A stretch of DNA of 64,000 bases, from NCBI RefSeq assembly GCF_030149515.1, contig NZ_JASBRI010000024.1, positions 62,001 through 126,000 on the forward strand. Reading direction: 5' to 3'. Below, in pieces: positions 17,803-21,786 of this stretch. The translations under genes were made by a program, and so were the position numbers. The stretch comes from Maricaulis sp. Lineage in GTDB: Bacteria > Pseudomonadota > Alphaproteobacteria > Caulobacterales > Maricaulaceae. The notes below the pieces were generated by a model that did not search any database, was not told the origin of the DNA, and saw only the letters and a list, made by a program, of their open reading frames with translations. The first letter of the stretch is position 1; each line of letters starts with the position of its first letter.

Positions 17803-17853
17803 ATCCACGCCCTGGCGTACGGACATTCCCTCACCCAGAATGTCCGAAAGTAG

Positions 17854-17887
17854 CGGCCGCCCTTCCCGGGGCGGCCGTTTTTTTTTG
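17854..17887 (+). terminator. Rho-independent terminator of gcrA
   Basis: The stem CGGCCGCCC / GGGCGGCCG (9 bp, 6-nt loop) is followed by a run of ten T residues. It separates gcrA from the convergent nrsF gene. Confidence 0.9.
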
Positions 17888-17903: not shown

Positions 17904-18548
17904 CTACCAGCGCAGGGCCCAGCGGCCGGCGGCGGCGCCGGTCAGCCCCGTCGCGGCGATCCCCAGCCCGTACCAGATCACCAGAAAGACCGGAGATGCC
18001 TCGCCGCAACCCAGCGAATAGACGGAGGCAGCCAGCCCCCCCGCGGCCAGGCCGCAGGCCCAGCCTGCGCGGCCCAGCCGGGTCGGCGCCGCGCGCCGCA
18101 TGACCGCCAGCATCAGGGCCAGCAGGGGGACGGACAGAAGCAGGATATAGCCGACACAGCGCCGGGCGGTTTCCCCCATGACAAGCGCCTGCCAGTCCGC
18201 GGGCGGCGTTGCCGCAAGCACGGCGAGGGCGATGGCGGCGAAGCCCGACCAGACGATCGCCGCGAACACCGGCCCGCCGGGGTCACGGGCCGCCGGCCGG
18301 GACAGGGCCGCCATGGCCCAGGCGCCGATAGCCGCCAGCGCGCCCGTAAACGCCAGTTTCAACCAGAATGACACGCCGTGCAGTGCGGCGACCAGGTCGG
18401 CCCGGAAGGCCAGGTCGGGCAGGACGAGGAATGCCAGCAGGCCGGCCCCGGCCGCGACCCCCACAGCCAGCAGTAGACGCCGCAGCGGGCGGCGCGGACT
18501 GACCGGTTCCAGGTCCTCCGCCAGACGCTCGATCAGATCGTCGGTCAC
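17904..18548 (-). CDS. nrsF: NrsF-like membrane anti-sigma factor (DUF1109)
   Basis: This 214-residue inner-membrane protein has a short cytoplasmic N-terminus (MTDDLIERLAEDLEPVSPRRP) and six hydrophobic helices, the layout of DUF1109 proteins. In Caulobacter NrsF holds SigF inactive and releases it in response to metal stress such as chromate, cadmium or copper; two conserved periplasmic cysteines were implicated. Here cysteines are seen in TARRCVGYI, in GWACGLAAG and in SLGCGEASP. The gene overlaps the sigma gene by 4 bp (ATGA at 18545-18548), which fits tight co-expression with its target. Confidence 0.9.
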   Translation of the reverse strand: MTDDLIERLAEDLEPVSPRRPLRRLLLAVGVAAGAGLLAFLVLPDLAFRADLVAALHGVSFWLKLAFTGALAAIGAWAMAALSRPAARDPGGPVFAAIVWSGFAAIALAVLAATPPADWQALVMGETARRCVGYILLLSVPLLALMLAVMRRAAPTRLGRAGWACGLAAGGLAASVYSLGCGEASPVFLVIWYGLGIAATGLTGAAAGRWALRW

Positions 18549-19108
18549 GACGATGCCTCCCGGCCCGCGAACCGGTCGCGAAGCGCTTTCAGGCCGCGAT
18601 GGACATTGACCTTGATCGCCGAAACGCCGCGGCCGCTGCGCGCCGCAGCCTCTTCCACCGACAGGCCTTCGACCTTGGTCAGGCGCAGGGCTTCGGCCTG
18701 GGGCGCGGAGAGCTCCGCCATTGCCCGGTCCAGATCGAGCCGCGCCATGGCGGCACCCTGTGCCGGATCGGCGGCGGCGAGGAATTGTGCCTCATCGTCC
18801 AGGGGCAGGCTCGCCCGCCGCCGGTGGGCACGGTAGAAATCCACCAGCTTGTAGCGCGCAATGGCATAGATCCAGGCCGTCAGCGGTTGGCCGGGGTCGT
18901 AGGTGTCGCGCTTGACATGGATCGCCATCAGCGTCTCCTGGACCAGATCCTCCACAGCCGACGGATCGCCGGCCCGCTGACGGAAATAGCCCGTCAGCCT
19001 TTGCTGCACGTCGCGCAGCAAGGTCCGGTAAGCCGCTGCATCGCCTGCCTGGCTCGCGACCATCAGGCTGCGCAGCTGTGCTTCGTATCGCTCCGTCACG
19101 ACAGTCAT
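18545..19108 (-). CDS. sigF: ECF sigma factor SigF
   Basis: This 187-residue ECF sigma factor has region 2 (LMVASQAGDAAAYRTLLRDVQQRL, then EDLVQETLMAIHVKRDTYDPGQPLTAWIYAIARYKLVDFYR) and region 4 (LSAPQAEALRLTKVEGLSVEEAAARSGRGVSAIKVNVHRGLKAL). It is followed by an overlapping nrsF and lies divergent from the bufferin operon, the same layout as Caulobacter SigF. A predicted SigF-type promoter ends only 4 bp before this ATG, so transcription would begin at or just inside the ATG; a GTG at 19099 (three codons in) may be the true start. The coordinate given is the longest family-consistent start. Confidence 0.92.
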   Translation of the reverse strand: MTVVTERYEAQLRSLMVASQAGDAAAYRTLLRDVQQRLTGYFRQRAGDPSAVEDLVQETLMAIHVKRDTYDPGQPLTAWIYAIARYKLVDFYRAHRRRASLPLDDEAQFLAAADPAQGAAMARLDLDRAMAELSAPQAEALRLTKVEGLSVEEAAARSGRGVSAIKVNVHRGLKALRDRFAGREASS

Positions 19109-19111
19109 AGG

Positions 19112-19137
19112 TTCGTGTCCCGCGCCGTGAAAGTTAC
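19112..19137 (-). promoter_or_regulatory. SigF-type promoter of sigF-nrsF
   Basis: On the minus strand GTAACT (19132-19137) and CGAA (19112-19115) are separated by exactly 16 nt. The Caulobacter SigF consensus is GTAACC-N16-CGAA, so only the sixth base differs. It would allow positive autoregulation of sigF. Confidence 0.75.
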
Positions 19138-19163
19138 AGCCGGAAAAAATTTTCAGCTCCACT

Positions 19164-19189
19164 GTAACCAATCTCTCATCCGCGGCGAA
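19164..19189 (+). promoter_or_regulatory. SigF-type promoter of the bufferin operon
   Basis: GTAACC at 19164-19169 and CGAA at 19186-19189 are separated by exactly 16 nt, a perfect match to the SigF consensus. Transcription would start near 19196, about 55 nt before the bufA start codon. The -35 element lies 26 bp from that of the divergent sigF promoter. Confidence 0.85.
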
Positions 19190-19251
19190 CTGCATCACGT
19201 GACCGGCGCTTCGGCAACGGTCGCAGAACCAAGTTCAAGCAAAGGTGATGC

Positions 19252-19554
19252 ATGAAACCGCAATCCAGAAACACAGCTTTTACCGCGTCCGCGCTCGCCC
19301 TCTCCCTCGCCGCCGCCGCTGCGGCCGGCGCCCAGGGCAATGACAACATGCCGGGCGACGAGGAAATGGAACGCTGCTACGGCATCGCCCTGGCGGGCGA
19401 GAACGACTGTGCCGCAGGTCCGGGCACATCCTGCGCCGGCACCTCGACCGTCGACTATCAGGGCAATGCCTGGACCTACGTGCCTGAAGGTACCTGCGAA
19501 TCCATCGAAACGCCCTACGGCCCGGGTTCCCTGGAGCCGATCGAGCGTCCGTAA
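19252..19554 (+). CDS. bufA1: Bufferin precursor peptide (DUF2282, BufA1-like)
   Basis: This 100-residue precursor has a Sec signal (hydrophobic run at about 9-26, cleavage near AGA-QG) and a core with four cysteines at 42, 53, 61 and 82. The spacing and context ([39 protein letters not shown]) match DUF2282, the family renamed bufferin 1. In the known system the BufB/BufC enzymes convert core cysteines to thiooxazole groups and the exported peptide binds copper in the periplasm. It is first in a four-gene operon behind a perfect SigF promoter. The modification itself is inferred from the family. Confidence 0.9.
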
Positions 19555-19614
19555 CAGGTTTTTCGAGCCCGCGCCCCGTCGCCCCCGCCGGGCGCAAAGG
19601 AGGTCATCGGTTCC

Positions 19615-20472
19615 GTGTCTGCCGTCCAGCCCTGTCCCCTCTATGCTGGCATGAGCCTCAAGCCCGAACATTATCGTTCCGCGCTTGATGCGCGGGCCGA
19701 TGGCCTCTGGTTCGAAGTCCATCCAGAAAACTATATGGGCGATGGCGGACCGCGCCTCGCCTGGCTCGACGCGATCCGCGCGAACCACCCCGTCTCCTTT
19801 CACGGGGTCGGATTGTCGCTCGGCGGTCCCGATCCGCTGGATCGGGACCATCTCGACCGGTGGAAACGGCTGGCCGGCCGGTTCGAGCCCGCCCGGGTGT
19901 CCGAACACCTGGCCTGGTCGAGCCTGGGAGGCCGGTATTTCAACGATCTCCTCCCCACGCCCATGACGCAGACGGCCCTGGACCGGTTCTGCGAACATGT
20001 CGACGAGATGCAGAGCGCGCTCCAGCGGCAGGTCCTGGTAGAAAATCCGTCGCGCTACCTGCCGATGCGAGACGACATTCCGGAGCCGGAATTTCTCGCC
20101 GAGACGGTCCGGCGAACCGGGTGCGGCCTGCTGCTCGACATCAACAATATCCATGTCAGTGCGCACAATCTGGGCTTCGATGCCCGCGCCTATCTCGATG
20201 CCGTTCCCGCCGGCGCCGTCGGCGAGATTCATCTGGCCGGTCACGATAGCGATGCCGGGCTCGGCGAAGCACTGCTGATCGACACGCATGGCCGCCCGGT
20301 CTCCGAAAGTGTCTGGTCGCTCTACGAGGCTGCGATCAGGCGGACCGGGCCGCAGCCGACGCTGATCGAGCGCGATACCGACATCCCCGCCTTCGAGACG
20401 CTCTTGCAGGAGCGCGCCCGGGCCCAGCTCATCCTGGACGCCGCCCGCAGCCGCGAGCCGGCCCATGCCTGA
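19615..20472 (+). CDS. bufB: BufB-like DUF692 multinuclear iron peptide-modifying oxygenase
   Basis: This 285-residue TIM-barrel protein belongs to DUF692, the MbnB/BufB family of iron-dependent enzymes that modify cysteines in peptide precursors. Likely metal-ligand segments are FHGVGLSLGG, VSEHLAWSS, VLVENPSRYL, LLDINNIHVSAHN, GEIHLAGH and LIERDTDIP. The start is a GTG at 19615 after AAAGGAGG (19596-19603). It follows the precursor gene by 60 bp and overlaps the partner gene bufC by 8 bp. Confidence 0.92.
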   Translation: MSAVQPCPLYAGMSLKPEHYRSALDARADGLWFEVHPENYMGDGGPRLAWLDAIRANHPVSFHGVGLSLGGPDPLDRDHLDRWKRLAGRFEPARVSEHLAWSSLGGRYFNDLLPTPMTQTALDRFCEHVDEMQSALQRQVLVENPSRYLPMRDDIPEPEFLAETVRRTGCGLLLDINNIHVSAHNLGFDARAYLDAVPAGAVGEIHLAGHDSDAGLGEALLIDTHGRPVSESVWSLYEAAIRRTGPQPTLIERDTDIPAFETLLQERARAQLILDAARSREPAHA

Positions 20473-21220
20473 CGATTTCCACACCGCCTTCGCCGACGCG
20501 CTGCGCACGGGCCGGACCGATCCGCTCCAGCCCTATCTGGCAGAAGCCGGCGCCGCCGGGCGGCTTTCCGTCTACCGGAACAATGTCGTGCGCGGTGCCA
20601 TCGAGGCGCTGCGCGCCGCCTTTCCCGCCATCGACCGGTTGATCGGATCCAGGCTGTTCGACGCGCTGGCCCGGGCCTATTGGCACACTCACCCGCCGGA
20701 ACGGCCCACGCTGATCCTTTATGGCGATGCGTTTGCGGACTATCTGGCCGGTGCCGAGCCTGTCGCCGGCCTGCCCTGGCTGGCCGATGTGGCGCGCCAC
20801 GACCGCGCCTGGCTGGAAGCCCATCACGCGCCCGGGGGCCGCCCGCTTGGCGCAGCCGATGCCGCCGGACTGGCCCCGGAAACCCTGCCCGCCCTGGTGC
20901 CGGGACTGCAGCCCTCGGTCCGGCTTCTGACCTCTCCCTGGCCCGCCTACGACATCTGGCACCGCAACCGGGTCGAGCCGGACGACGCGCCGATGCGGGC
21001 CGACCCCGGGCAGTATTTCTCGCTGCTCTGGCGTAAGGACGGCACGGTATGCAGCCGCATGCTGCACGCGGGCGAGCACGCCTTTCTGGACGCGCTGGGC
21101 GGCGGCGCTCCGCTGGAGACGGCCGCACAGGCAGGCCTGGCGGCCGAACCCGGTTTCGATCCGGCGGCGGCTTTTGCCGCCGCGCTCAATGATTCCCTGC
21201 TGAAAGGTCCCCTGACATGA
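20465..21220 (+). CDS. bufC: BufC-like DUF2063 partner protein
   Basis: This 251-residue protein is DUF2063, related to the MbnC partner that helps the DUF692 enzyme recognise its precursor. The N-terminal helical domain has the characteristic LSVYRNNVVRGAIEALRAAFPAIDRLIG segment (about 34-61), followed by ARAYWHTHPPERPTLILYGDAFADYL. It overlaps bufB by 8 bp and the DoxX gene by 4 bp, so BufB and BufC are made together, consistent with a heterodimer. Confidence 0.92.
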   Translation: MPDDFHTAFADALRTGRTDPLQPYLAEAGAAGRLSVYRNNVVRGAIEALRAAFPAIDRLIGSRLFDALARAYWHTHPPERPTLILYGDAFADYLAGAEPVAGLPWLADVARHDRAWLEAHHAPGGRPLGAADAAGLAPETLPALVPGLQPSVRLLTSPWPAYDIWHRNRVEPDDAPMRADPGQYFSLLWRKDGTVCSRMLHAGEHAFLDALGGGAPLETAAQAGLAAEPGFDPAAAFAAALNDSLLKGPLT

Positions 21221-21786
21221 CCCCTTCGCCGCTGGCGCGCACGACCGCGCTGCACGACCGTCTCGTCCGCCTGTTGTCGGGCATCCGGGTCCGCGACGCC
21301 CTCGCCCTGCTGGCCCGGCTGAGCCTGGCCGGCGTGTTCTGGCGTTCGCTCCTGACGAAGGTCGAGACCGTCCGGCTGCTGCCCTACATCGAAACGATCA
21401 ACGCACATGACGTGACGCGGCATCATTTGCGCGTGCCCGATTTCCCGCTGGACATGAAGGCGTCGACACTGACGCTGTTTGCCACGGAATACGACCTTCC
21501 GCTCATTCCCCCATCCCTGGCCGCATGGATGGCGACGCTGGCGGAATTCCTCCTGCCGATCGCCCTGCTCCTGGGCCTGTTCACACGCTTGTCCGCGCTG
21601 GCACTGATCGGCATGACGCTGGTGATCCAGGTCTTCGTCTATCCGGAAGCCTGGTGGGGCACGCACGCCCTCTGGATCTCCATGGCGGGTCTCGTGGCCG
21701 TCTACGGGCCGGGCCGGATCAGCCTCGACACCGCCCTGGGACACCTCTCGCCATCCGGCCGGGCCGGGCGGCCGGCCTCATCCTGA
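21217..21786 (+). CDS. bufD: DoxX-family membrane protein of the bufferin operon
   Basis: This 189-residue inner-membrane protein has four helices and the DoxX pattern (ALLARLSLAGVFWRSLLTKVETV and ATLAEFLLPIALLLGLFTRLSALALIGMTLVIQVF). In SigF-controlled operons of Caulobacter a DoxX protein is the last gene, as here. Its job is not settled; redox or metal handling at the membrane has been suggested. It overlaps bufC by 4 bp and ends 7 bp before the convergent GH5 gene. Confidence 0.88.
   Translation: MTPSPLARTTALHDRLVRLLSGIRVRDALALLARLSLAGVFWRSLLTKVETVRLLPYIETINAHDVTRHHLRVPDFPLDMKASTLTLFATEYDLPLIPPSLAAWMATLAEFLLPIALLLGLFTRLSALALIGMTLVIQVFVYPEAWWGTHALWISMAGLVAVYGPGRISLDTALGHLSPSGRAGRPASS

Follow-up and report, generated by a model that had tools for sequence, protein, structure and literature searches.

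Divergent SigF-type promoters between sigF-nrsF and a bufferin operon in Maricaulis, a probable metal-stress switch

The window analyzed in this study, a 64-kb stretch (64,000 nucleotides) of a Maricaulis genome, carries two gene runs that point away from a common gap, sigF and nrsF on the minus strand and the bufferin operon bufA-bufD on the plus strand. All six genes scored above the cut-off of their own Pfam family. The locus comprises the following features:

17904 to 21786, both strands: whole cassette nrsF-sigF / bufA-bufD, a 3.9-kb block missing between the same neighbours in four congeners
17904 to 18548, minus strand: nrsF, encoding a membrane anti-sigma factor; it overlaps the 3′ end of sigF (Pfam NrsF, E 6e-54, above cut-off)
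18545 to 19099, minus strand: sigF, ECF sigma factor (Pfam Sigma70_r2 and Sigma70_r4_2, above cut-offs)
19112 to 19137, minus strand: SigF-type promoter of sigF-nrsF (-35 GTAACT at 19137-19132, N16, -10 CGAA at 19115-19112)
19164 to 19189, plus strand: SigF-type promoter of the bufferin operon (-35 GTAACC at 19164-19169, N16, -10 CGAA at 19186-19189)
19199 to 19224, plus strand: candidate stem-loop close to the start of the bufA transcript (folding energy predicted at -14.4 kcal/mol with z -1.7, internal loop included)
19252 to 19554, plus strand: bufA, DUF2282 bufferin-1-type precursor of 100 aa (Pfam DUF2282, E 2e-26; sole match in the assembly)
19615 to 20472, plus strand: bufB, MNIO (DUF692) modification enzyme (Pfam MbnB_TglH_ChrH, E 2e-99; sole match in the assembly)
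20465 to 21220, plus strand: bufC, DUF2063 partner (Pfam DUF2063, E 8e-24)
21217 to 21786, plus strand: bufD, DoxX family protein (Pfam DoxX, E 7e-15)

Genes for a DUF2282 precursor, an MNIO, a DUF2063 protein and a DoxX protein lie together here, the combination that marks a Buf1 bufferin cluster, and the ECF sigma factor gene, with a gene of the NrsF family directly behind it, forms a SigF/NrsF pair. Sigma factor and NrsF genes have been reported in Buf1 but not in Buf2 clusters (PMC12452194), and the present locus resembles such Buf1 clusters in holding all six gene families together; compared by gene content rather than promoters, it shows no difference in kind from those described in the excerpts of that survey used here. 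The same six families occur in the same layout in Caulobacter crescentus (CC3252-CC3257, with sigF-nrsF as CC3253-CC3252 and the bufferin operon as CC3254-CC3257). Cys131 and Cys181 of NrsF are kept; they are the same two cysteines as in the Caulobacter protein, and both are invariant in all seven aligned NrsF sequences (7/7). The Caulobacter Buf1 is described as a copper chelator (PMC12452194), and by analogy the product of bufA-bufD would be a copper-binding modified peptide.

The initial annotation had read GTAAC(C/T)-N16-CGAA on both strands of the gap, with a plus-strand copy perfectly matching the Caulobacter consensus and a minus-strand copy differing by one base. This reading, together with that of the genes on either side of the gap, is correct: the site at 19164-19189 (+) is an exact Caulobacter-type GTAACC-N16-CGAA, and the site at 19137-19112 (-) is one base off. 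The minus-strand -35 ends in T, which is nothing unusual: among the 82 sigF-side sites of relatives, the sixth base was C 59 times, A 9 times, and G and T 7 times each. Exact matches to GTAACY-N16-CGAA within the 64-kb window are confined to these two sites. With up to one mismatch allowed, the window contains five matches, a number reached by 16 of 100 shuffles, so the one-mismatch pattern is not significant by itself. A weight matrix derived from 120 sites of relatives, with the window left out, was run over all window positions on both strands and ranked the bufferin-side site first (21.4) and the sigF-side site second (18.6), followed by a third-ranked position at 13.3. When the 152-bp gap (19100-19251) was dinucleotide-shuffled 20,000 times, 22 of the shuffled sequences had GTAAC-N16-CG(A/T)A on one strand or more, and 0 had it on both. 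Both sites also keep the spacing usual in relatives to the genes they precede, sigF and the DUF2282 operon: 27 nt separate the sigF-side -10 from the conserved SigF block (median 28, range 17-46 in relatives), and 92 nt separate the bufferin-side -10 from the DUF2282 domain (64-126 in relatives). The motif by itself is weak evidence, and its placement in the gap is strong evidence.

Transcription from ECF promoters usually starts 6-8 nt after the -10 element. On the sigF side, the -10 ends at 19112 and an ATG at 19108 begins 3 nt past it, which leaves this codon outside a transcript begun 6-8 nt downstream of the -10. In an N-terminal alignment, SigF homologues begin 11-12 residues ahead of a conserved Leu-Met, matching a GTG at 19099-19097, and relatives including L046, L047 and L050 carry GTGACGGA 12 nt after the -10, as does the window. 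These alignments indicate that sigF most likely starts at GTG 19099-19097, which is likelier than ATG 19108. The sigF-side transcript is expected to start at about 19106-19104 and with the GTG start would have a leader of only about 5-7 nt. The 143-bp gap given by the initial annotation holds if ATG 19108 is the start and becomes 152 bp with GTG 19099. Its proposed transcript start near 19105 agrees with the expected positions, but falls after the very ATG that the 143-bp figure assumed, and relatives favour the GTG. The corrected start is relevant to anyone fusing or expressing sigF. On the bufferin side, transcription is expected to start at about 19195-19197, leaving some 56 nt before the start codon. 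Caulobacter offers a parallel to each: its bufferin transcript, CC3254, has a leader of 61 nt, and that of the SigF-dependent CC2907, like the sigF transcript here, a short one, of 7 nt (PMC3511200).

The leader of bufA may be structured. Across 42 clusters, including the window, folding in excess of expectation was concentrated just past the -10 (mean z -1.20 at start 0 and -1.01 at start +10, against -0.5 to +0.5 elsewhere). Stems of at least 6 bp were found in 20 of 42 leaders, compared with 9.8 in shuffles, and stems of at least 7 bp in 16 of 42, compared with 3.5; stems of at least 5 bp showed no excess (31/42; shuffles mean 23.0, maximum 33). The longest uninterrupted stem in the window's own stem-loop is 4 bp. 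The opposite strand is also structured, less strongly (mean z -0.91 at start 0 and -0.53 at start +10). The folding occurs in variable sequence and is not universal among relatives; it perhaps reflects an mRNA stabilizer or, given the structure of both strands, an inverted repeat in the DNA. The MAFFT alignment of the leaders was too gappy for a covariation count. A scan of 19000-19400 against Rfam gave no family over threshold and one sub-threshold match, likely due to chance. A GTGACC word in the leader was rejected as a conserved sequence motif, being present in only 6 of 57.

To place the two sites among relatives, NrsF loci were gathered from the family, order and class of the window's genome, in which 7 of 137, 132 of 398 and 87 of 387 genomes (82 of the last over cut-off), respectively, had an NrsF match, and from a scan of named genomes, which added at least eight loci. 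Loci were taken mainly from the top of the NrsF score lists, with some hand-chosen places added, a biased sample whose members are related and not independent. Merging of 8 exact duplicates left 119 unique sigF loci, the window included; one was too short, in 54 besides the window a divergent bufA lay within 600 bp, and in 63 there was none so placed. In the 54 divergent loci, the bufA-side site was found in 52, the sigF-side site in 47 and both in 47, with the spacing exactly 16 at both sites in 38; a reversed control pattern occurred on the sigF side in 2/54 and on the bufA side in 0/54. The site search recovered no recognizable sigF-side site in seven of the divergent loci and no bufA-side site in two. 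Where bufA was not divergent, a sigF-side site lay within 90 nt in 35 of 63 loci and was not found within that distance in 28. Self-activation by SigF is therefore not universal. In relatives the -10 element is either CGAA or CGTA, and the last base of the -35 is not fixed. A search of the PLSDB plasmid collection gave no match to the window's NrsF. In a SigF tree, the window's protein is sister to that of G064, a genome of the same genus (support 99/84).

The distances between the two -35 elements in divergent sigF/bufA loci cluster near 34-37, 43-47 and 63-69 bp, which suggests helical phasing. From 48 back-to-back pairs including the window, a cut at 150 removed two, whose gaps measured 171 and 190 bp, and the remaining 39 unique cluster/value gaps gave a best period, within a range of 8-14, of 10.5 bp (R 0.51). 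The phasing was first spotted by eye in the same kind of data; the prediction was then fixed and 80 further loci were fetched, yielding seven held-out pairs with gaps of 21, 22, 28, 31, 34, 45 and 64. Tested at period 10.5 against the training phase, these seven pairs did not confirm the phasing (mean cosine 0.15, p 0.29). The gap in the window is 26, and shared ancestry may be the source of the apparent pattern.

Genomes of a sister genus, g6, allow the presence of a site to be compared with that of the regulator. In the three g6 genomes with NrsF (G008, G009 and G013), a SigF-type site has its -10 ending 39 nt before the start of a thioredoxin reductase gene (L161, L173 and L174; named by NCBIfam TRX_reduct, over cut-off), and in the three without NrsF (G010, G011 and G012) no such site precedes that gene (L192, L197 and L193); NrsF presence serves here as a proxy for sigF presence, and the g6 genomes are few and related. 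The G010 gene, whose product is 98% identical in protein sequence, has an apparent decayed remnant of the site upstream. Among 32 thioredoxin reductase loci looked at, out of 130 family genomes with a match, the site occurred only in G008, G009 and G013; one of the 32 (L215) had just 67 nt of upstream sequence. The site is possibly a lineage-specific extension of the SigF regulon, and a literature search gave no title or abstract on a SigF site before a thioredoxin reductase gene among the matches listed. This case amounts to a small natural experiment, with NrsF and site together, or NrsF lacking and the site absent or decayed, which backs the consensus without bench work. The g6 layout is itself different: a SigF-type site comes first, followed by genes for a thioredoxin-domain protein and a DsbD_TM protein and then by sigF and nrsF (L157, L177 and L178), and in G008 and G013 bufA follows on the same strand with its own site. 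This run ties g6 sigF to thiol chemistry.

The Caulobacter SigF consensus, the layout of the sigF and bufferin promoters and the name NrsF come from Kohler et al. (2012; PMC3511200), where the CC3254 start was mapped by 5′RACE and the sigF start was taken from an earlier mapping. In lacZ fusions, activity was lost without the -35 (CC3254) or without the promoter (sigF), and overexpression of SigF raised both promoters (PMC3511200). Toward the bufferin genes the window has the GTAACC-N16-CGAA element of Caulobacter and a leader of similar length, and toward sigF its site closely resembles the Caulobacter one. These mapping and reporter data and the conservation in relatives make it very likely that both sites are promoters read by SigF, one directed at sigF-nrsF and the other at the bufferin operon.

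We interpret the pair, with a probability of roughly 0.88, as the back-to-back promoters of a metal-stress switch, in which SigF held by NrsF would, once freed, transcribe both bufA-bufD and sigF-nrsF. What is observed is the pair of sites, where they lie, how well they are conserved and which genes flank them; the trigger, the dependence on SigF and the binding of copper are taken over from work on Caulobacter, metal-triggered release of SigF being known only from there (PMC3511200). In the unstressed cell, membrane-bound NrsF would hold SigF. Metal stress, by analogy with Caulobacter that of copper and also chromate or cadmium, would free it, probably being sensed via NrsF and its two conserved cysteines. 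SigF-RNA polymerase could then start rightward near 19196 to express bufA-bufB-bufC-bufD and so make the putative copper-binding modified peptide, and leftward near 19105 to express sigF-nrsF, translated from GTG 19099, which would renew sigma factor and inhibitor alike.

The self-activating part of this switch, proposed in the initial annotation, needs qualification. SigF promoters toward both operons are very likely, but auto-regulation of Caulobacter sigF is weak under chromate or cadmium and the gene is not exclusively SigF-dependent; its promoter retains activity in a sigF mutant, and a second regulator acts there (PMC3511200). Together with the lower score of the window's sigF-side site (18.6 vs. 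21.4) and the more frequent loss of this site in divergent relatives (7/54 vs. 2/54), these data leave room for an account, in our view rather unlikely, in which only the bufA side has a strict SigF promoter and the sigF side is mainly constitutive or differently regulated, with little real feedback. Against it, the sigF-side element is present in 47 of 54 divergent relatives, and copper induces Caulobacter sigF (log2 2.2 to 4.7), nrsF (1.8 to 4.3, the value of 1.8 being starred in the table) and the bufferin genes, a sigF mutant being copper-sensitive (PMC8224329).

Many ECF factors use an AAC-type -35, and another sigma factor of the genome might act at these sites in place of the adjacent SigF, as the second regulator at the Caulobacter sigF promoter could also suggest. 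We consider this very improbable: the g6 thioredoxin reductase site tracks NrsF (3/3 with, 0/3 without), Caulobacter SigF itself acts at the same consensus, and work on its sigF promoter excluded both sigT and rpoE (PMC3511200). That both motifs are chance matches is a negligible prospect, for although the exact pattern is no more frequent in the assembly than in shuffles (7 vs. about 6; reversed control 3), two facing sites share one 152-bp gap at usual distances to both genes and the same pair recurs in 47 of 54 relatives of this layout.

Returning to the SigF switch, we asked how far its regulon extends in this genome. The initial annotation had proposed a genome-wide motif search to define the regulon; it was run, and the count in the 2.9-Mb assembly (G000) is at chance level, with seven exact GTAACY-N16-CGAA sites, three for the reversed control and about six expected from 30 window shuffles. 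Two of the seven are in the module, four fall in sequence judged coding from codon usage (score trained on 12 genes of the window), and one is intergenic. The genome-wide count was rejected as a definition of the regulon. Loosening the -10 to CGWW gave no enrichment genome-wide (16 sites vs. 15 for the reversed control). G064 has five exact sites, two in the module, two coding and one noncoding with no scored gene downstream. The intergenic site (L003; G000:C6:101260-101285, minus strand) is the only exact match of the seven outside both coding sequence and the module; it scores strongly (21.0) and lies between Tad-like and Methyltransf_11 genes, ahead of the latter. It has no counterpart among the five exact sites of G064, so it may be of chance origin. 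In Caulobacter the SigF regulon further takes in another DUF2282/DUF692 operon and the MsrPQ genes, whereas the present assembly, 89.8% complete, has one DUF2282 match and one MNIO match, and its msrPQ-like pair (Oxidored_molyb and Ferric_reduct) shows no site at up to one mismatch across a 3.5-kb locus. No SigF-type site was found at its thioredoxin reductase gene either. The regulon here is likeliest to be the cassette itself, plus L003 as one candidate.

The six genes make up one block. Four of 18 congeners carry the right-hand neighbour gene (G070, G079, G062 and G066), and in these the left-hand Aminotran_3, ABC2_membrane and GcrA genes and the right-hand glycosyl hydrolase family 5 gene (Pfam names) keep their order across a junction gap of about 180 to 650 bp, which in 4/4 has no match to any of the six cassette genes. 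DNA similarity with G070 and G079 extends up to 17804, returns at 17853-17887 (a hairpin and T-run after gcrA) and resumes from 21826. G064 has the six genes at a different place, with none of the window's neighbours in the 16 kb examined. The GC content of the block is 68.5%, compared with 64.8% and 64.1% in the flanks; there is no tRNA between 15000 and 25000, and a check of the flanks for repeats gave none that were convincing. The block may have been gained in the lineage of the window or lost from the congeners.

A divergent SigF promoter layout is already published for Caulobacter, and the present case is a further example, which extends this well-studied metal-stress switch to another family. 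Tentatively, and with less than even confidence, we suggest that in the genus Maricaulis the SigF metal response may be reduced to a single 3.9-kb plug-in cassette of sensor, sigma factor, effector operon and one two-way promoter, with no other gene under SigF control and the regulon travelling whole with its regulator, and that elsewhere in the family SigF may gain and lose targets, such as thioredoxin reductase, as it comes and goes. The two-way promoter itself is a conserved core of many bufferin modules.
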